A DNA stretch of 64,000 bases from an uncultured Bacilli bacterium. GTDB lineage: Bacteria; Bacillota_I; Bacilli_A; RFN20; CAG-826. The stretch lies in contig CALVXI010000007.1 in the NCBI GenBank assembly GCA_944368975.1, forward strand, positions 1 to 64,000, read 5' to 3'. The notes under the pieces were generated by a model. That model was not told the origin of the DNA. It ran no database searches and worked only from the letters and a program-made list of their open reading frames with translations. Within the stretch, counting starts at the first letter, position 1. Each line of letters opens with the position of its first letter. This document shows positions 2,570 to 57,916 of the stretch, in pieces. A program made the position numbers and the translations under genes.

Positions 2570-2964
2570 TACAAACATTCCTTTTTTAATTTAGTAAATA
2601 AAAAATAACTTACAAAGCCGTTCTCATACAAAGAGTTAATAAAATCAATTTTAGTAGAAAAATAGTATTTTTCTAGTACATTTTTAGCTTTCTTCTCAAT
2701 ATCCTTTGAATCAAAAAATTTTAATTTTCTATCATATAAATATAGAATGTGATCTATATAACCATCCTTATTTATTATCATTAAAACATGAGTATGAGGA
2801 TTTAAAAAAGTATCACTTGTCTCATCGCTTGTAATATAAATATAGTTTTTTGTAGATTCAACTTTTTTATGCCTTTTATATAATTTGTAACTATGGTCAT
2901 TAACTAGTTGATTGGCATTACGATACTTATGTGTTAATTTAAAAATTGATTTAGTTTTTTTCAT
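2569..2964 (-). CDS. Unknown 131-residue protein
   Basis: I do not recognise this protein. It is Lys/Tyr-rich with no signal peptide or clear membrane segment. The middle carries a stretch around NPHTHVLMIINKDGYIDHI that suggests beta strands, followed by a lysine-rich helix. It lies between rsmE (3-base gap) and mtaB (stop and start overlap as TAATG), so it is translationally coupled in the RNA-modification part of the heat-shock operon. That context hints at an RNA-related role but proves nothing. Confidence 0.7.
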   Translation of the reverse strand: MKKTKSIFKLTHKYRNANQLVNDHSYKLYKRHKKVESTKNYIYITSDETSDTFLNPHTHVLMIINKDGYIDHILYLYDRKLKFFDSKDIEKKAKNVLEKYYFSTKIDFINSLYENGFVSYFLFTKLKKECL

Positions 2965-8953: not shown

Positions 8954-9013
8954 TTTTTAAAAATAATTTTATTATCTTCGAAATTTTAAATGTAAAAATC
9001 AATATATTAAATT

Positions 9014-9051
9014 TAGTAAAAATTTAGTATATTTCAAGTAATAAATTAGTA
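9014..9051 (+). repeat. TTAGTA array A, 11-bp period, four units
   Basis: The core TAGTA (AAGTA in unit three) starts at 9014, 9025, 9036 and 9047, exactly 11 bases apart. The array ends one base from the hemW stop codon (9053) and lies about 75 bp upstream of the hrcA -35 box. It reads TTAGTA on the plus strand, opposite to the other three arrays relative to the adjoining gene. Its second and third units almost match a 17-mer shared by arrays C and D. Confidence 0.85.
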
Positions 9052-9052
9052 T

Positions 9053-10156
9053 TTATGAAATTAAATCTACTATAATACGATCCAAAATTGCCATTCCTTC
9101 ATGAGTAACTTTAAACCCATACTTATTTTCGGAAATCAATTTTTCATTTTGTAGCTTATTTATCATTTCACTTTTTTTATCTTTTAAAGAAAAAGAAAAC
9201 CTTTCCTCAAATTTTTTATAAGAAATACCATATCTAGTTCTTAAATTTAACATTATGTATTCCTCAACTTCTTCTTCAAGATTTAATAATTCATAATTTA
9301 TTTCAATATTATAACTATTAAACTTAGATAGATTTTTAGTGACTATATATCTTTTATTTCCAATATAGCCTGAGGCACCTAACCCAATACCAACATATTC
9401 ATTATCAAACCAGTAATTCAAATTATGTTTACTCTCATATTTAGGTTTTGCAAAATTGCTTACTTCATAATGAATATAACCTTTATTGATTAATTTATCT
9501 CTAATCAAATCATAAAATTCACGATTCAAATCTTCGTCAATTTCTTTGTAACCTTTATTATAAAATTCTGTGCCCTTAGATATTGTTAAAGAGTAAATAG
9601 AAATATGAGGAACATCTAAATCTAAAAATTCTTCTAAATTATTTAAAATGTCCTCTTTTTCTTCAAAAGGTAACCCGTAGATGAAATCTAAATTTATGTT
9701 TTCAAAATATTTTTTTACAAGATTAATGATACATTTAAAATTTAGGTCAGCACGATGCAACAAATTTAAGGTCCTTCTATTAAAACTTTGAATTCCAATT
9801 GATAAACGATTAATATCGTATTTTTTTAAAGTACTTAATAGTTCTTCTGTTATATCCTCAGGATTTAATTCAATGGTAAATTCACATTCTTTCTTTCTTA
9901 ATTTATTCAATTTTATTAAAAGTTTTGTCAAGTTTTCTATTTTTAAGCTAGATGGTGTCCCTCCACCTATATAAATAGTTTTAAAGCGAAAAAAATTGTC
10001 CTCAACTTTACTAAGTTCAGATAACAAAACTTTGATATATTCGTCTTCAAATTTGCTATTTTTTATAATCTTAGTAAAATCACAATAAGGACAAATTTTA
10101 GAGCAGAAAGGAATATGAATATATAAACTATTTATCCTTTTCTTCTTTGTTTTCAT
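9053..10156 (-). CDS. hemW: Heme chaperone HemW-like radical-SAM protein
   Basis: Radical-SAM protein of the HemN/HemW family. The cluster motif CSKICPYCDF, the IYIGGGTPSSL motif and a C-terminal winged helix are present. Bacterial HemW binds heme and passes it to target proteins and is not itself a coproporphyrinogen dehydrogenase. I chose the ATG at 10156 (367 residues); a TTG at 10174 is also in frame, and neither has a good ribosome-binding site. Either start overlaps the end of the upstream acidic membrane-protein gene, suggesting translational coupling. Confidence 0.88.
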   Translation of the reverse strand: MKTKKKRINSLYIHIPFCSKICPYCDFTKIIKNSKFEDEYIKVLLSELSKVEDNFFRFKTIYIGGGTPSSLKIENLTKLLIKLNKLRKKECEFTIELNPEDITEELLSTLKKYDINRLSIGIQSFNRRTLNLLHRADLNFKCIINLVKKYFENINLDFIYGLPFEEKEDILNNLEEFLDLDVPHISIYSLTISKGTEFYNKGYKEIDEDLNREFYDLIRDKLINKGYIHYEVSNFAKPKYESKHNLNYWFDNEYVGIGLGASGYIGNKRYIVTKNLSKFNSYNIEINYELLNLEEEVEEYIMLNLRTRYGISYKKFEERFSFSLKDKKSEMINKLQNEKLISENKYGFKVTHEGMAILDRIIVDLIS

Positions 10157-10424
10157 CTGTATCTGATTTATCAAGTGTAGGTTTTTCTAAATTATTATCT
10201 TGATGTTTTTCGAAATCTTCAAATTCCTTTTTTGTATTTTCATCATCAATAGTTTCTAAATATCTATTTAGATCATCTTCGACAATTTTTTCTTCATCAT
10301 CAATATCACCTTTTGGTTTAATGATATACTTTCTTATGAGCCAAACTATTAAGCAAATAATGCCAAAAACTATCAATATTAATAACAATATAAAACCTGT
10401 ATTTTCTAATAAACTTACTAACAT
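10128..10424 (-). CDS. Small one-TM protein with acidic tail
   Basis: The 98-residue protein has one membrane helix (about residues 8-30, FILLLILIVFGIICLIVWLI) followed by a Lys/Arg stop-transfer segment. A strongly acidic tail (DDEEKIVEDD ... DTDENKEEKDK) should lie in the cytoplasm. GAGG precedes the ATG. Its end overlaps the hemW start. I recognise no family; the shape is like small bacterial membrane adaptor proteins. Confidence 0.75.
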   Translation of the reverse strand: MLVSLLENTGFILLLILIVFGIICLIVWLIRKYIIKPKGDIDDEEKIVEDDLNRYLETIDDENTKKEFEDFEKHQDNNLEKPTLDKSDTDENKEEKDK

Positions 10425-10448: not shown

Positions 10449-11837
10449 TTAGTTTCTTTTAACTGGAACATATATGAACTTGTTCTTTCTAGATTCTTTC
10501 CTATAAAAACCAAGTTCAACCAATTTATCCATACTAGTTCTTGCGGTTTCATAAGCACAATTATTGCATTTTTTAAATTGAGAAATTGTATAATTCATAC
10601 CAAGTGTGCAATGTCTAGCATAGAAATATGCTTGATTGGAACTAAGTTCTGGGTATCTTTCTTTTAAGTGATTTTCAAATTTTTGAGCTTCATCTTCATC
10701 AAGCCCTACCATTATACTGCTAAATGCAATACTTTGGGTAAAAGAAACATTACTTTGATTACTTGATCCTTGTTGTTGATTATTAATTACAGCTTGTTGA
10801 ACAATAGGTTCTTTCTTAATTTCACCTTTATTTTCATTTTGATAATCTAGATTAAAGTCTTCATTTATATTTTGCTTTGTTGTTTCAAGCAAAATAGAAT
10901 TAAGAAAATTTTCAATATTATTTTCAAATTTTTTAAGAACAAAATTTAAAAAATATGTAATATCTAAATTATACTTTTGAGTTTCAATTATATATTTTTC
11001 TATTTCTTCGTTATTAGATAAAAATGATTCCATATTTAGATAACAAGCAACTTCTTCTAAGTCGTTATGGCATAAAATCATTTTAAAAACTAAAATGGCA
11101 ATTTCTTCACTATAAAACTCAAAAGGCTTAATATAGTTAAGATAATAGTAAGCAGAAACCGCTTTAACAAATAATGATTGATTACTATTTTTAATAAAGC
11201 TAATCAAATAATTCATGCTACTTTCGATACTATTTTTAGGTATGCCAATATAAAATTTATTAACTAATGTTCTATTTAATTGGTTCTCAATTTCTTGTTG
11301 CCTATAGAATTCAGTTAAGTCATCAGTTCCTAATAAAATAGAATATAATTTTCCAAAAAAATCATCATTAATATCCTGATTAAAATTATTTTTAATTTCA
11401 TCCAAAGCTTTTATGTAATTTAAAAGTATCGCATATTTAGAAGGAACTTCAGCAGCGTTTTCACGTATAATGTCGTTCAATGTTTTTTCATCTAGTTCAT
11501 AATTATATTTTTTCGCTAATGATTTAATGATTTCTTTTTTTGAACTCTCATCAAAATTAGCTTTATTTACTCGCCCTAATTTAGAATAGTTAATCATTGC
11601 ACGTGCAAGTTTTCTTTCTAAAGAACAAATTCTTTCAACCATTAATGATGTTAAGCAAACATTGTAACTTGCACCAGTAATATGTTTTAACGAAATATTA
11701 GTTCTAAAATAACGTCTAAAATCAAGGATTTTTTCCCACGTTTTATCAATAATTGGGACTTTTAAGGCTTGCATAACCTCTTCTTGAGTTGCATAAGTGT
11801 TTACACTAAACCTTGTCCCTAAATCTGTATTTTCCAT
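10449..11837 (-). CDS. Degenerate Fic-fold protein with C-terminal winged helix
   Basis: The central part follows the Fic family layout: a FYRQQEI segment (177-183), IGIPKNSIESSMNYL (197-211), then the helix that normally precedes HPFxxGNGRxxR. Here that motif reads IKPFEFYSEE (236-245), so the catalytic His is Lys and the GNGR loop is lost. AMPylation is therefore unlikely. The last 90 residues (CAYETARTSMDKLVELGFY ... FIYVPVKRN) look like a winged helix, as in Fic-linked regulators. GAGGG precedes the ATG. It follows lepA and has its own candidate promoter abutting TTAGTA array B. The Fic assignment is inferred from pattern only. Confidence 0.6.
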   Translation of the reverse strand: MENTDLGTRFSVNTYATQEEVMQALKVPIIDKTWEKILDFRRYFRTNISLKHITGASYNVCLTSLMVERICSLERKLARAMINYSKLGRVNKANFDESSKKEIIKSLAKKYNYELDEKTLNDIIRENAAEVPSKYAILLNYIKALDEIKNNFNQDINDDFFGKLYSILLGTDDLTEFYRQQEIENQLNRTLVNKFYIGIPKNSIESSMNYLISFIKNSNQSLFVKAVSAYYYLNYIKPFEFYSEEIAILVFKMILCHNDLEEVACYLNMESFLSNNEEIEKYIIETQKYNLDITYFLNFVLKKFENNIENFLNSILLETTKQNINEDFNLDYQNENKGEIKKEPIVQQAVINNQQQGSSNQSNVSFTQSIAFSSIMVGLDEDEAQKFENHLKERYPELSSNQAYFYARHCTLGMNYTISQFKKCNNCAYETARTSMDKLVELGFYRKESRKNKFIYVPVKRN

Positions 11838-11856
11838 AATTACCCTCTTGTTTATA

Positions 11857-11884
11857 ATTTTAATAAATTAGAAAATTTATTCAA
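11857..11884 (-). promoter_or_regulatory. Candidate promoter of the Fic-like gene
   Basis: Minus strand TTGAAT (11879-11884), 16-bp spacer, TAAAAT (11857-11862). TTAGTA array B begins 7 bp upstream of the -35 box. Confidence 0.4.
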
Positions 11885-11890
11885 TAAAAT

Positions 11891-11917
11891 TACTAAAAAA
11901 CAACTAAAAAAATACTA
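11891..11917 (-). repeat. TTAGTA array B, 11-bp period, three units
   Basis: On the plus strand TACTA, AACTA and TACTA start at 11891, 11902 and 11913, exactly 11 bases apart. Read on the minus strand this is TTAGTA or TTAGTT. It begins three bases after the lepA stop codon and ends just upstream of the candidate promoter of the Fic-like gene. Confidence 0.8.
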
Positions 11918-11920
11918 ATT

Positions 11921-33864: not shown

Positions 33865-36525
33865 TTATTTACTTTCAAAAGTTGATTGTGAATAACTTCC
33901 AGGATTTGAACTTTGTTCGCTGCTTCCTTTAAATCCATTTATATGAATTAAAACTTTAGCTCCTTTAGCATTATTACTAGTAGCAGCTTTTTCTATAATT
34001 CCTTCTTCTAGAAGTTGATTAAAAATTTTCATACTACGAGTATATCCAAATTTGAATTCTCTTTGAATCATAGAAATACTACAATATTCCTTACTTTCCA
34101 TAATATATGTTTTTATAGTTTCATAAGCTTCATCTTCATCATTATTAGGGTGAATAACACCAAAATCATTATTCGCTTTAGACTTAGTAAGTAAATCAAC
34201 AAAAGTATCATTATATTCTAATTCATATTTAGATTTTAAATGCTCAACAACTCTTCGAATTTCATTATTATCAACAAAACAACCTTGAACACGTGGCTTT
34301 TCAGTTTTTGATATGTTAGAACAAAGTACTAACATATCGCCGTTTCCCAATAATTTTTCCGCTCCGCCTTCACCTAATATGACCATACTATCCGTTACAC
34401 TAGATGTAGTTAAAGCTACTCTACAAGGCAAATTAGCTTTAATACTACCAGTAATAACATCGGTTGAAGGTCTTTGTGTAGCAATAATCATATGTATACC
34501 AGCTGCACGAGCTTTTTGACCCAATCTTTGAACAGGTTTATCAATAGTTTTGACACTTTCAATTAAATCAGCAAATTCATCAATAATTAATATAATGTAA
34601 GGAATTTTCTCGACGCCTACTTCTTCAGCATATTTATTATATTGTTTAATATTACTAACTCCAGCAATTTCAAAACTAGTAAATCTCGACTCCATTTCAT
34701 CAACAAGTCTAGTTAATGTCGCACTAGCTTCAGTTGGCTCACTAATAATTGGACATAATAAATGAGGCATTTCACGATATTTAGAAAACTCAACTCTTTT
34801 AGGATCAATCATCACTAAACGAATGTCGTTTGGAGAATAACGCATAATCATCGATAAAATTAATGAATGCATAAAAATAGATTTTCCTGAACCAGTTGTA
34901 CCACAAACCAACATATGTGGAAAATCAAATAAATCAGCTTGAATAAAATTTCCACTAATATTTTTTCCAAAAGGGACATATAATTCACCAGGTTTTGGTT
35001 TTGGCAAATTATTAAAAACATCTTTAAAATTAACTATTGCACGATTAGCATTAGCGATCTCAATTCCACTAGTAGACTTTCCTAAAACGATAGGAACAAA
35101 ACGTACATCAACGCCTCCTAATCGAACTGATATATCATTCATATATTTTTCAATACCATTAATTGATACATTTCTTTCAGTTTCAAGATCAAAACGTGTA
35201 ACACTTGGCCCAATAGTATAACTTACAATATGTGCTTTAATATTTAAATCGCTTAAAATTTGATTAATTTGCTCTTTTCTTTCTTCACAAACTTCAATGT
35301 TACGCTTTTTATCTTCTTCGCTATCACGATCATCTAATAAATCAATTGGAACCTCTTTAAAACTAGTTGAATTTGTTTTATTTAAATTTTTATTAATTGA
35401 TTTATTTATTGGTTTATTTATTGGATGTGTATCTAACGAGGTATTATTAGCCTTTTTAACTTCAATTGCTTCATTAGGAATATCATGTATTGCCTTTTCA
35501 ATTTCTTCATCTTGAATTTCATTATTTACTTCATTAGCATTTACTTGATTATTTGGAGTGTCATTATTCTCTTCTTTAATTTTTTCAGTAAATGTAGGAT
35601 AAGCTGTCCTATTAGAAAATGCTTCACTATAAGACTTATTTGTAGATTCTTTTATTGGATCAAAATCATCATTATCATCAAAACTAATCTTAACTTTTTC
35701 TAAACTAGTATTAATAAAGTTGTTATTTAGTACTTTATTAGTATTTATTGATGGTTTTATTGTTTCAATAACAGGTTCTTGCTTAATAGGAACTGCTTCT
35801 TCTTTAATTATAGTAATAGGCTTTGTTACAAAATCACTAGATTTTAATTCTTCTTTGTCTTTATCATAATATTCATTATATGCTCCATCACGAATTAAAC
35901 TTCTTTCACTAGATTCATCTTTATCAAAGCTTTCAATAACTTTTTGATTCAAACTTTTTTCACTTTTATCACTATTGATAGATTTTATTAAAAAATAAAA
36001 AGGTCTAAATAACGCAAAAATAACACCAATAGCAATAAGACAAATTGAAAAAATTGAAGTTCCTAAGCTAGTTAAAGCACTATTTAAAGCAGCTACTAAA
36101 AAACAGCCAATAACGCCAATACTATTTTCAATATTAACATTAGGAAACTCACTAAGATTTAATGAATTTACAAAAATATCACTAAAATTATTAAATGTTA
36201 AACTAGTTCCACCAACACTTGTAATTGAATTAGTTATTCCAATTAAAATACCAATAGCAGCAATTGAAATACCAATAATTATAAATTTAATATTATGTAA
36301 AACAATTTTCTTTTTAACAATAAAACTTAAGCCATAAATAAAAAGCAAAACCCCAATAATATAAGTAAAAACGCTTCCAAACACGAGTGAAATACACCAA
36401 AACAAAAATTTACTTATATATCCATGGTTTAATAAAAGGATAATTGCAATTAATGAAATTGCAATACCACACGATGCTTTTAGAGTATAAGAATTTATTT
36501 TGTCTTTTAACTTACTTTGCTTCAT
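33865..36525 (-). CDS. ftsK: DNA translocase FtsK/SpoIIIE
   Basis: Septal DNA pump that clears chromosomes during division. The 886 residues have four or more N-terminal membrane helices (to about residue 180). A long Asn/Asp/Glu-rich linker (190-400) and the RecA-like motor follow, with Walker A CGTTGSGKS and Walker B LIIDEFADLI. The C-terminal gamma winged helix (FGYTRSMKIFNQLLEEGIIE) reads KOPS/SRS-type signals. No Shine-Dalgarno is seen; TATAAT ends 9 bases before the ATG. Confidence 0.96.
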   Translation of the reverse strand: MKQSKLKDKINSYTLKASCGIAISLIAIILLLNHGYISKFLFWCISLVFGSVFTYIIGVLLFIYGLSFIVKKKIVLHNIKFIIIGISIAAIGILIGITNSITSVGGTSLTFNNFSDIFVNSLNLSEFPNVNIENSIGVIGCFLVAALNSALTSLGTSIFSICLIAIGVIFALFRPFYFLIKSINSDKSEKSLNQKVIESFDKDESSERSLIRDGAYNEYYDKDKEELKSSDFVTKPITIIKEEAVPIKQEPVIETIKPSINTNKVLNNNFINTSLEKVKISFDDNDDFDPIKESTNKSYSEAFSNRTAYPTFTEKIKEENNDTPNNQVNANEVNNEIQDEEIEKAIHDIPNEAIEVKKANNTSLDTHPINKPINKSINKNLNKTNSTSFKEVPIDLLDDRDSEEDKKRNIEVCEERKEQINQILSDLNIKAHIVSYTIGPSVTRFDLETERNVSINGIEKYMNDISVRLGGVDVRFVPIVLGKSTSGIEIANANRAIVNFKDVFNNLPKPKPGELYVPFGKNISGNFIQADLFDFPHMLVCGTTGSGKSIFMHSLILSMIMRYSPNDIRLVMIDPKRVEFSKYREMPHLLCPIISEPTEASATLTRLVDEMESRFTSFEIAGVSNIKQYNKYAEEVGVEKIPYIILIIDEFADLIESVKTIDKPVQRLGQKARAAGIHMIIATQRPSTDVITGSIKANLPCRVALTTSSVTDSMVILGEGGAEKLLGNGDMLVLCSNISKTEKPRVQGCFVDNNEIRRVVEHLKSKYELEYNDTFVDLLTKSKANNDFGVIHPNNDEDEAYETIKTYIMESKEYCSISMIQREFKFGYTRSMKIFNQLLEEGIIEKAATSNNAKGAKVLIHINGFKGSSEQSSNPGSYSQSTFESK

Positions 36526-40698: not shown

Positions 40699-40736
40699 TA
40701 CTAGAAATATACTAATAATATACTAAAAATCAACTA
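40699..40736 (-). repeat. TTAGTA array C, 11-bp period, four units
   Basis: On the plus strand TACTA, TACTA, TACTA and AACTA start at 40699, 40710, 40721 and 40732, exactly 11 bases apart. The outermost unit contains the TAG stop codon of the ABC gene (40734-40736). A 17-mer on the minus strand (TTAGTATATTTCTAGTA) is identical in array D. The array lies about 120-160 bp upstream of the pnp ATG. Confidence 0.88.
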
Positions 40737-42488
40737 ATTAAATTGAGAGTAATATAGTTTGCTATAAAAGCCTTGTTTTAGTAATAATTCTTCGTGTTTT
40801 CCTTTTTCAATAATAGCTCCATCTTTCAGAACATAAATTAAATCACTACTTTTAATTGTAGATAATCGATGAGCTATGACAATCGAAGTTCTCCCTTTCA
40901 TTAAATTATCCATTGCCTGTGATATTTTTAACTCAGTTCTCGTGTCTACATTACTTGTTGCTTCATCTAGAATTAAAATATCACTGTCCTTTAACATCAT
41001 TCGTGCAATGCATAATAATTGCTTCTCACCATTACTAAGTCCACTTTCATCATCAATTACAGTATCAAATCCTTTAGGTAACCTCTTAATAAAATCATAA
41101 CAATTAGCTTTTTTACATGCTTCTTTTACTTCTTCTAATGAGGCATCAGGTTTAGAAAATTTAATATTATCTAAAACAGTTCCGTGAAAAATCCAAGTAT
41201 CTTGTAAAACCATAGATAAATTATTTCTTAATGAAGACTTCTTAATATCTAAATTATTAATATTGTTAATTAATATTTCGCCACTATTAGGATCATAAAA
41301 TCTTAGTAATAAGTTAATGATAGTTGTTTTTCCACATCCTGTAGGACCAACTAATGCTACCTTTTTTCCTTTAACTATCTCTAAATTAAGATTTTTAAAT
41401 ATTTGTTTTTCATCATTATACTCAAAGCAAATATTTTTTAATTCAATTTTATTAATTTGCGAAACTTCTGTCTTACCATTATCTATATCTTCATCTAAAT
41501 CGATAATTTCTTTAATTCTTTTTAAACTATTCATTCCAGTTTGAATTTCACTAACACATCCTGAAACTTCATTTAGAGGTTTTGAAAATTGATTAGTATA
41601 TTGTAGAAAACTCATAATTCCACCAATTGTTAAATCAATTCCTAAATATCCTAAATTTCCACTATAAACAACTAATAATGCCCCAATAAGTCCAACTATT
41701 CCATAAATTGAATTAGTTATAAGTCTAGTTGATGGATTAACTAAACTTGAAACAAATTGAGCTTTTTGTCCCGCTTTATATAACTTTTTATTACATTTTT
41801 CAAATTTAATAAAACTTTCATCTTCGAAATTAAAAGATTTAATAACTTCAATATTATTAAAACTTTCTAATACAATAGAAGATAAATCTCCCGTTTCTTT
41901 TGCTTGCTTTTTAAAATACTTATTTCCATATTTAATGATTAAATAACTAATAAAAAATCCAAATGGTGTAAAAACTAAAACAATTAAGCCTAGTAACCAG
42001 TTTTGAAAAAACATAAAGAATATAGTAAAAATGACAGTTATAATTCCTTGAAATAATTGCTTATACCCGCTAATTAATCCAGTTGAAACATTATCAACAT
42101 CATTAATGCAACGGCTAATTAAATCACCATGAAGATGAGAATCGATAACTTTAATAGGTAAGGAATTCAATTTACTATATAAATCGTTACGTATATTAAC
42201 AATGATTCTTTCAATAAAAATGTTTACATAGCTTTCAAAAATATATTGAAATATAACTACTAAAATAATACATAGCGAAATATAAATAATGTAGTTAATC
42301 TCAAGATTAATATATTCTTGATAAGTAATCTTATTTTCGATAATCAAAGTAAAAACATCTACTACTTTACCAGTTAAAAATGGAATTAATAAAGTACAAG
42401 GAACAAAAACTAATGCACATAAAAATGAAAGAATTAAGTTTAATTTTGAATTTTTAAAATATTTAAATAAAAACTTTAAATTTTTCAT
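40734..42488 (-). CDS. ABC exporter half, subunit with intact Walker B
   Basis: Six-helix membrane domain fused to an ATPase domain, 584 residues. It has Walker A GPTGCGKTT, Walker B ILILDEATSNVD with the catalytic Glu, and the switch His (VIAHRLST). Its signature is degenerate, LSNGEKQ. It pairs with the next gene upstream, which has the opposite pattern, to form a heterodimeric type IV exporter of the LmrCD/TM287-288 kind. The ATG follows the partner's stop by 2 bases. The substrate (drug, lipid or peptide) cannot be told. Confidence 0.9.
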   Translation of the reverse strand: MKNLKFLFKYFKNSKLNLILSFLCALVFVPCTLLIPFLTGKVVDVFTLIIENKITYQEYINLEINYIIYISLCIILVVIFQYIFESYVNIFIERIIVNIRNDLYSKLNSLPIKVIDSHLHGDLISRCINDVDNVSTGLISGYKQLFQGIITVIFTIFFMFFQNWLLGLIVLVFTPFGFFISYLIIKYGNKYFKKQAKETGDLSSIVLESFNNIEVIKSFNFEDESFIKFEKCNKKLYKAGQKAQFVSSLVNPSTRLITNSIYGIVGLIGALLVVYSGNLGYLGIDLTIGGIMSFLQYTNQFSKPLNEVSGCVSEIQTGMNSLKRIKEIIDLDEDIDNGKTEVSQINKIELKNICFEYNDEKQIFKNLNLEIVKGKKVALVGPTGCGKTTIINLLLRFYDPNSGEILINNINNLDIKKSSLRNNLSMVLQDTWIFHGTVLDNIKFSKPDASLEEVKEACKKANCYDFIKRLPKGFDTVIDDESGLSNGEKQLLCIARMMLKDSDILILDEATSNVDTRTELKISQAMDNLMKGRTSIVIAHRLSTIKSSDLIYVLKDGAIIEKGKHEELLLKQGFYSKLYYSQFN

Positions 42489-44747: not shown

Positions 44748-44785
44748 TACTAACAAACTACTAGAAATATACTAAAATATTACTA
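44748..44785 (-). repeat. TTAGTA array D, 11-bp period, four units
   Basis: On the plus strand TACTA starts at 44748, 44759, 44770 and 44781, exactly 11 bases apart with the core intact in all four. The array begins two bases after the ribF stop codon (44788-44790) and lies upstream of the rpsO promoter. It shares the 17-mer TTAGTATATTTCTAGTA with array C. Confidence 0.9.
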
Positions 44786-44787
44786 AA

Positions 44788-55804: not shown

Positions 55805-55960
55805 TATAAATAATTATAAATTAATATAAAAATTATGTTGGTTTCTTGTTTCTACCTTACTGGTTGATAAACGATTTACATCGAAATCTTTTATCAGAGC
55901 CGTTAAGTCCGCAAGCGTAAATTCGGCAGTAACTCTACCTACTTTTTTAATTAAATAATT
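55800..55960 (-). ncRNA. Possible omega RNA (reRNA) of the TnpB element
   Basis: TnpB guide RNAs are encoded at the 3' end of tnpB and run past the element edge. Here the last part of tnpB is unusually GC-rich and folds: GCCG/CGGC (55899-55902 and 55924-55927) around CGC-AA-GCG, and GATTT/AAATC (55873-55877 and 55884-55888). The guide would come from the decayed gene just beyond the right end near 55803. The exact ends are not determined. Confidence 0.4.
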
Positions 55961-57094
55961 ATATAAATTTATTGCAGCATTAAAATCACGATCAATTGTA
56001 ATGTTGCAGTTATCACAAATAAATTTTCTATCACTTAATTTTATTTGAGAATTATAATTACCGCAATTTGAACAAATTTTAGTACTAGCAAAAAATCTAT
56101 CCGCGGAAAGAAAATATTTTCCAACCATATCACATTTTGAATGTATCTTTTCTTTAAGTTTATAAAAAGATACCTCACTAATAGCTCTTGCTAAATGATG
56201 ATTTTTAAGCATTCCTTTAACATTTAAATCTTCCATGCAAATAAAATCAAAGTTTTTAACAATTACGGATGAAACCTTTTCAATAAAATCGGTTTTCATA
56301 TTTAAAATACGTAAATGTTTTTTCGCTAGGCGAAAGGAAGCTTTTAAATAATTTTTAGACTTTTTAGTTTGATCCCCCTTGGTTCTTGGGTGAATCTTTC
56401 TATCAAGTTGTCGAGATAATTTAATAAGCTTTTTGCTTTCTCTTTTTATGCCTTCAGGCAAATGAATACTAAATGGAACTGAAAGAGTTAAAGCTGACTT
56501 AACTCCTAAATCAATTCCAAGAGCTTTTTCTTTAAAAATAGCAAGTTTAGCTTTCTTATTTAGTAACTCTTCTTCAGAAATTGCAAAAGTAAAAGAAACA
56601 AAATATATTGAATATATATGAGAAATTGTACAAGATAAAATTTTTCCATCATATTTAATTTTTTCAGTTAATTTTATAGGTTTATCAAGTAAAGGAATTT
56701 TTATATACTGCTTATTTGAATGAGGTTTTGTAACGATTTTAATTTGATCTCCGCCAATATAAAAACTTTCATTATTTGACTTCTTTTTAAAAGCAAGCTC
56801 AATTGGTTTACCTCCTTTTTTTAAAGTATCCTTAATAGCTTTATTTAGATGAATAAAAGGTTGTTGGGTAGCATATTTTGTAACGTCGTAAACAAAAGGA
56901 AATTTCTCTCTTTTTAAAGAATTAAATTGCTTTTTTAAATCATAACCATTTTTAAACATACCTTTCTTAATGTTTTCGTTATATTGCTCTACACCCCAAT
57001 TATATGCAAAGCGTTTACAACCAAAACATTTATTAAGATATGTTTTTTGTATATTATTTGGTTCAATTTTTATTTTCTGTGAGATTTGTTTCAA
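55814..57094 (-). CDS. tnpB: TnpB RNA-guided nuclease
   Basis: Ancestor-type RuvC nuclease of IS605/IS607 elements. The RuvC residues are all present: Asp195 in GIDLGVKS, Glu288 in ICMEDLNVKG, and Asp370 in DRDFNAAINL. The zinc ribbon (Cys341, Cys344, Cys360, Cys363) is complete, and the 426 residues have a normal N-terminal region. It begins at TTG (57094) with GGAG 7 bases upstream, overlapping tnpA. It likely cuts DNA next to a short TAM under omega RNA guidance, promoting element retention. Confidence 0.94.
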   Translation of the reverse strand: MKQISQKIKIEPNNIQKTYLNKCFGCKRFAYNWGVEQYNENIKKGMFKNGYDLKKQFNSLKREKFPFVYDVTKYATQQPFIHLNKAIKDTLKKGGKPIELAFKKKSNNESFYIGGDQIKIVTKPHSNKQYIKIPLLDKPIKLTEKIKYDGKILSCTISHIYSIYFVSFTFAISEEELLNKKAKLAIFKEKALGIDLGVKSALTLSVPFSIHLPEGIKRESKKLIKLSRQLDRKIHPRTKGDQTKKSKNYLKASFRLAKKHLRILNMKTDFIEKVSSVIVKNFDFICMEDLNVKGMLKNHHLARAISEVSFYKLKEKIHSKCDMVGKYFLSADRFFASTKICSNCGNYNSQIKLSDRKFICDNCNITIDRDFNAAINLYNYLIKKVGRVTAEFTLADLTALIKDFDVNRLSTSKVETRNQHNFYINL

Positions 57095-57710
57095 CTACTT
57101 TCTCCAAATCACTAATAAGTTTTTTATTCTTCTCACTGCGACTTCCATATAATCGAGCAGAAAAAACTGTAATGATTTCTAAAACATCCTTAGCAAGTTC
57201 TTCTTCAAAAGAAGGAGTTTCATCACCTTGATTTATAATAATGATTTCAACATTTTTTGCTTCGCATATTGAGAAAACTAATTCTGCACCGAAACGTAAA
57301 AGCCTATCCTTATGAGTTAAAATTAATCTTTGAACCTGATTATCTAAAATTAAATCAATAAGTTTTGTTAATCCCTTTTTATAGTAATTCATTCCAGAAC
57401 CAATATCTTGAATTACTTCATACTTATAGCCATGTTTTGCACAATAGAGTTCCAATAATTGGACTTGTCGATTTAAATCTTCTTTTTGATCATGAGAAGA
57501 AACTCGAGCATAAGCAATTGTTTTTAAATCATCTTTAGTAAAAATAATATTTCTGTTTATATTTCGTAATGATTCAATTCTATATCGCCTTGCTTTCCCC
57601 TTTGTAAGCTCATCAGGCTTTAAAAGTCCTTTCTTATCCCAGTTACGAAGTGTTGTTGTTGTAACACCTAAAATTCTTGCTGCTTCACTAATATTAACTA
57701 ACTTTCCCAT
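57063..57710 (-). CDS. tnpA: IS607 serine recombinase TnpA
   Basis: Small serine recombinase that moves the element. An N-terminal MerR-like helix-turn-helix (VNISEAARILGVTTTTLRNWDKKGLL) precedes the catalytic domain. The nucleophile Ser is in AYARVSSHDQKEDLNRQ, and the Arg pair is in LILTHKDRLLRFGAEL. I chose the ATG at 57710 (215 residues); an upstream TTG would fall in the -10 box. TATAAT ends exactly 6 bases before it with no Shine-Dalgarno, suggesting a leaderless mRNA. Confidence 0.94.
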   Translation of the reverse strand: MGKLVNISEAARILGVTTTTLRNWDKKGLLKPDELTKGKARRYRIESLRNINRNIIFTKDDLKTIAYARVSSHDQKEDLNRQVQLLELYCAKHGYKYEVIQDIGSGMNYYKKGLTKLIDLILDNQVQRLILTHKDRLLRFGAELVFSICEAKNVEIIIINQGDETPSFEEELAKDVLEIITVFSARLYGSRSEKNKKLISDLEKVVETNLTENKN

Positions 57711-57716
57711 ATTATT

Positions 57717-57722
57717 ATTATA
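57717..57722 (-). promoter_or_regulatory. -10 box next to the tnpA ATG
   Basis: Minus strand TATAAT ends 6 bases before the tnpA ATG. No good -35 is seen. Transcription would start at the ATG. Confidence 0.5.
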
Positions 57723-57916
57723 GCACAATTGATATAAAAATTACATAAAATTTTATAATTTTTTATAATAAATATATATCAGTTAAAAACCCTAGAACTG
57801 TTAGAAAGGAAGATAAGATTAACAATTTTTTTATAAAAAATTCTCCTTTTAAGGTTTTGATTATTATATTTTGTATACACCAAAAAGTAAAATTTTATGC
57901 CTTGAAAAAAATTAAT

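Follow-up and report, generated by a model that had tools for sequence, protein, structure and literature searches.

A Fic-fold protein without its active site and 11-bp repeat arrays around dif: a probable terminus-marking system in an uncultured order of Bacilli

Background

What does a Fic-fold protein that has lost its catalytic motif do beside a tandem array of TTAGTA repeats at its own promoter? The question is raised by a window of 64,000 nucleotides, the whole stretch of DNA analysed here (contig C7 of the 1.3-Mb genome G000 of an uncultured member of the Bacilli). A sequence-only reading of this DNA had proposed that the protein, here called X, is a catalytically dead Fic regulator that binds such arrays and controls its own expression. 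Comparison across related genomes points elsewhere: the best reading is that X and the arrays form a system that marks the replication terminus and that evolved independently of MatP, ZapT, Tus and RTP.

Protein X, its fold and its neighbours

Gene X stands in the order lepA-X-Y-hemW, which recurs in relatives and is followed in the window by an hrcA-grpE-dnaK-dnaJ cluster. The features of the locus are as follows.

10449-11837, minus strand: gene X, 462 aa, dead-Fic and winged-helix protein, flanked by lepA and gene Y
10848-11648, minus strand: Fic-like helical domain of X, residues about 64-330 (AlphaFold model, Foldseek and PDB profile match)
11103-11132, minus strand: residues 236-245, the Fic motif decayed to IKPFEFYSEE where HPFxxGNxR would stand (30-sequence alignment)
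10452-10697, minus strand: C-terminal winged helix of X, residues 381-462, modelled over 381-458 (DSSP on the model)
10128-10424, minus strand: gene Y, 98 aa, immediately downstream of X, a membrane protein with a single span
11857-11884, minus strand: candidate X promoter, with -35 box TTGAAT (11884-11879), 16 nt, and -10 box TAAAAT ending at 11857
11891-11918, minus strand: Array B, three 11-bp units (TTAGTA, TTAGTT, TTAGTA) at the X promoter, kept in 74 of 80 named relatives

At the level of one sequence the Fic relationship is faint. Against the Pfam Fic family X alone gives a sub-threshold E of 0.053, its 14.8 bits falling short of the PF02661 gathering cut-off of 24; E<=0.01 against PF02661 is reached by 6 of 30 relatives, and neither X nor Y has a Pfam or NCBIfam match above cut-off that would name it. 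A search of the genome contigs with the X sequence alone returned no relatives and an alignment-based search returned 216; Candidatus Onthovivens merdipullorum is among the named ones. A profile of 30 orthologs matches the Fic structures 4rgl (E=1.6e-9) and 8cil (E=1.2e-6) in the PDB, and the AlphaFold model of X (mean pLDDT 83.5) has Coxiella Fic2 (CbFic2) as its best Foldseek match (E=1.6e-7), the leading matches all being Fic proteins. Structure prediction and comparison had been set beforehand as the test of the fold, and the Fic helices are present; the helix layout read earlier from the letters is thus borne out by the predicted structure, Foldseek and the family profile, as is the closing winged helix by the model and DSSP. 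Conservation within X is highest in the winged helix, which is mostly 46-59% identical, as against 28-41% for the N-terminal part and the rest, in split matches of relatives from the genus and family.

The active site, on the other hand, is gone. The Fic catalytic motif HPFx[D/E]GN[G/K]R is absent from the X family, HPFxxGNxR being found in 0 of 30 aligned orthologs and 0 of 80 named relatives, which confirms the earlier observation that HPFxxGNGR has turned into IKPFEFYSEE. X is a Fic-fold protein by descent and, by the defining motif, no Fic enzyme. No paper came up in a literature search on Fic proteins serving as winged-helix regulators of transcription. As for the neighbour, a small hydrophobic open reading frame of about 70-100 aa follows X in 78 of the 80 named relatives.

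Tandem arrays with an 11-bp period

Besides Array B, the window holds the following arrays.

9013-9051, plus strand: Array A, four units in the hemW-hrcA interval, directed away from dif
40699-40737, minus strand: four-unit array upstream of pnp
44748-44786, minus strand: four-unit array between ribF and rpsO
2651-2678, plus strand: three-unit array within a coding sequence, a possible site or chance

The unit consensus across arrays is TTAGTAnWWWW, in which only the flanking positions are independent, as the TAGTA core served to find the arrays. Chance or AT-richness as the source of the arrays is ruled out by three kinds of control: three-unit arrays number four in the window at period 11 and none at periods 8-10 and 12-15, none arises in 10 Markov shuffles of the window, and the whole own genome has 15 exact TTAGTA pairs against 3 of the reversed control pattern.

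Array B stands 6 nt upstream of the candidate -35 box; the sequence-only reading had its position right and the distance, given as 7, slightly off. A TATAAT-like box lies a median of 29 nt past the promoter array in 62 of 71 relatives.

Two further observations in the window may be recorded. A single TTAGTA pair (two units), possibly due to chance, lies at 35727-35743 within an ftsK/spoIIIE-type gene. At 55814-57728 a TnpB-like gene adjoins a serine recombinase with a MerR-type helix-turn-helix, an arrangement that resembles an IS607-type element.

X and the arrays occur together

Co-occurrence across genomes had been set as a test of the link between protein and repeat, and the association holds. 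In 47 X carriers there are 340 exact TTAGTA-n5-TTAGTA pairs and 85 reversed controls; in 11 relatives lacking X the figures are 7 and 19. The latter set leaves out G016, a 70% complete genome of the window's genus with 10 pairs and no X detected, whose X is probably unassembled. With a threshold of three units and at most 3 mismatches in 15, an array lies upstream of X in 74 of 80 named genomes, 72 of these on the X strand, and the downstream control region gives 0 of 80 at the same threshold. In the two X-carrying families, f1 and f3, about 22 of 39 genomes have three-unit arrays, compared with 5 of the 257 other genomes of the class. Because of the relatedness of the genomes, counts over them are not independent. 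Some X carriers have few or no strict three-unit arrays away from dif; G288, for example, has no strict three-unit array at all, just a two-unit array at dif and a degenerate promoter array.

Family f25 of the same class has X orthologs beside lepA without such a promoter array, and a different gene lies there between X and hemW from that of the window group. These orthologs have just 282-311 aa (L281:4825-5742, L284:4403-5338, L285:3697-4545, L288:4303-5181), and their promoters share a TTTTGTCG-like sequence; X there is possibly a further reduced form with another site. Multi-unit TAGTA arrays with an 11-bp period also turn up outside the main group, at L290:4940-5010 (G095) and at L282:4400-4437 and L283:4139-4187 (G246). 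G246 has a short X ortholog, and G095, 55% complete, is without an X match in the class search.

Arrays gather around dif

A point absent from the earlier reading is where the arrays lie on the chromosome: they are mainly clustered at the terminus and are not mainly a regulon. The GC-skew maximum is ringed by arrays in G019, G099, contig C6 of the own genome, G009 and G018. In G099, 10 of 12 arrays are within 65 kb of dif (expected 1.6, P=7e-8), and arrays near dif make up 9 of 11 in G009 (P=2e-8), 5 of 6 in G018 (P=5e-5) and 6 of 13 in G019 (P=0.002). Each of six skew maxima (the five just named and that of G288) has the Xer dif form ACTTCgtATAATnnnnATTATGTtAA at or within about 1.4 kb of it. 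Of 59 relatives, 45 have exactly one such dif-form site, and the control has no match. In G288, assembled as one contig, the skew minimum is near dnaA (about 200 kb) and the maximum at 719 kb, 43 kb from X; the distance between X and dif is 29-57 kb in more than 40 genomes compared with both on one contig.

At all six maxima an array lies about 85-130 bp beyond the XerD arm of dif. A pattern search for a two-unit array within 80-140 nt of dif, carried through 196 genomes of the order, finds it on the XerD side in a fixed orientation in 103; 3 genomes have it in the opposite orientation and 8 on the XerC side, and every reversed-pattern control gives zero. X is detected in 177 of the 196, and the dif array accompanies it, being present in 100 of the 177 with X and 3 of the 19 without (Fisher P=6e-4). 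The three exceptions, G382, G415 and G449, belong to the window's family, and since other members of their genera mostly have X, the gene was likely missed or unassembled in them. Outside the window's family, the array is present in 20 of 43 X carriers and 0 of 12 genomes without detected X (P=0.002). Of these twelve, G370 (75% complete) carries an XerC-side array, and G042 has a divergent X under the search threshold.

These counts bear on whether another protein binds the arrays, X being merely a target or partner. The links between X and the arrays are all positional and phylogenetic, as such an arrangement would also produce; it appears unlikely, given that X itself carries a winged helix, that this is its most conserved part, and that none of the 12 lineages without detected X outside the window's family has the XerD-side array.

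The constancy of spacing, side and orientation relative to dif, together with the ftsK/spoIIIE-type gene at 33865-36525 of the window, would also suit an accessory role for Xer recombination or for the FtsK/SpoIIIE translocase, the dif-adjacent array building a complex that controls dimer resolution. This is quite improbable as the whole account, for it leaves unexplained the other arrays, spread over about 100-200 kb, and the array at the X promoter.

Other elements are seen in the dif flanks. A GATn2-5ATC palindrome between an A tract and a T tract follows dif at an almost constant 21-23 nt in 21 of 38 genomes (1.9 expected in shuffles; G000:C6:24881-24903 in the own genome), and may be terminator-like or a further binding site. 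DnaA-box-like sequences lie between dif and the array, with TTATCCACA exact in G018 (L276, G018:C16:119300-119320) and near matches in the dif flanks of the own genome, G099 and G288.

Position rather than gene control

If the arrays served a regulon they should track genes, and if they served the terminus they should track dif. When the own genome, G019 and G099 are compared, two arrays prove conserved, one at the X promoter and one at dif; most of the rest switch gene neighbours yet remain around dif. Moreover, 28 of 34 arrays are intergenic, though the genomes are more than 92% coding (by ORF count), and 7 of the 28 lie in convergent gaps with no promoter to control. A positional role is favoured because of this neighbour turnover, intergenic bias and placement in convergent gaps.

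The earlier idea of an ordinary regulon, with X controlling other genes as well as itself, draws on the array directly upstream of the X promoter in 74 of 80 genomes, on the window arrays upstream of pnp and rpsO, and on array neighbours common to the own genome and G019 or G099, which are slightly above chance (5 genes each). It is nevertheless very unlikely, since the arrays track dif, not genes, and one of them adjoins dif itself; as the main function a regulon is ruled out by gene turnover, the convergent-gap sites and dif adjacency. What stands of the dead-Fic regulator is thus the dead fold, the winged helix, the association of X with the arrays and the array at its own promoter; what falls is transcriptional regulation as the main role. 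Autoregulation through the promoter array is plausible as a secondary function, by analogy with RTP and Tus.

Relation to known terminus systems

MatP has a ribbon-helix-helix fold, and its site matS is one 13-bp palindrome. X, as a putative site-specific protein, and its arrays share with them many sites confined around dif, over a similar fraction of the chromosome, the clustering at dif in G099, G019, G009 and G018 being of the kind that defines matS. They differ in protein, a Fic fold with a winged helix instead of a ribbon-helix-helix with a four-helix bundle, and in site, arrays of 11-bp direct repeats instead of one palindrome. In the MatP system 23 matS sites lie in 800 kb (PMC3330122), and MatP has been reported solely from enteric bacteria (PMC7188993). 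ZapT of Caulobacter is a DNA-binding protein of a regulator-like family reused for terminus marking and a link to division (PMC7188993), and X would resemble it as a DNA-binding protein put to such use; unlike X, ZapT is of the MerR family, with low sequence specificity in vitro and no repeat arrays described.

The closest relative in structure is CbFic2 of Coxiella (PDB 8cil), which binds DNA through its winged helix (PMC10628234) and shares fold and domain order with X; CbFic2, however, is an active enzyme that binds random DNA sequences, whereas the X family is without the catalytic motif.

Layout brings X nearest to the fork-arrest systems RTP-Ter of Bacillus subtilis and Tus-Ter of Escherichia coli, and the strongest rival reading is that X on its arrays is a polar barrier against forks leaving the terminus, a third independent system of this kind. 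RTP, like X, is a winged-helix protein. X lies 29-57 kb from dif with an array at its promoter in 74 of 80 genomes, much as tus and rtp are near the terminus, have a site in their own promoter and are autoregulated (PMC10331603); arrays occur on both sides of dif, and the dif-proximal one has a fixed orientation (103 against 3 genomes). The polarity, however, is loose and incomplete, with just 7 of 11 arrays pointing toward dif in G099 and 6 of 9 in G009, and X's own array reversed in G099. Overall 36 of 49 point toward dif, little above the 61% predicted from isolated hexamers and composition (P=0.04), so that polarity was rejected as proof of a fork trap; overall orientation is only weakly informative, the dif-proximal array excepted. 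Tandem direct-repeat arrays are also unlike known Ter sites, and X is an unrelated protein, with no RTP or Tus homology among the Pfam/NCBIfam matches, PDB sequence matches and structural matches listed. A fork trap is a serious possibility, if a doubtful one.

X and its arrays thus resemble MatP-matS, ZapT and RTP/Tus in layout and are a member of none, because X does not share the fold of MatP, the sites are arrays of direct repeats, and the searches gave no sequence relationship to RTP or Tus.

A proposed mechanism

Probably X binds DNA site-specifically, at the arrays, and thereby marks the replication terminus. Its winged helix would recognise the 11-bp unit TTAGTAnWWWW, and since units recur about once per helical turn, several X molecules may line up next to each other, perhaps cooperatively, along the same face of the DNA. 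The arrays, of 2-9 units each, are found at dif, at the X promoter and elsewhere within about 65-130 kb of dif, mostly between genes. X bound to them would cover the terminus region and flag it for the machinery of division or segregation. Most likely this would organise or tether the dif region, possibly through Y, and the promoter array would let X set its own level. Y, as a conserved neighbour, is possible as a membrane anchor; nothing links it to DNA. All told, there is a reasonable likelihood that a Fic enzyme, minus its catalysis, became a self-regulating binder of dif-centred 11-bp arrays that organises the terminus or blocks forks, perhaps with a membrane partner.

Significance

Protein-plus-site terminus systems (MatP-matS, Tus-Ter, RTP-Ter and ZapT) are each limited to some groups of bacteria (PMC7188993). 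A large uncultured, gut-associated order of the Bacilli now appears to own such a system, whose protein, sites and dif context can be read from sequence, and a precise 11-bp site is offered for testing. The comparison suggests repeated origins of terminus proteins, from unrelated folds but with the same autoregulatory layout, and it would give a catalytically dead Fic protein a new role. For genomes of this order, the dif sequence together with a terminus marker may also serve in assembly and orientation.
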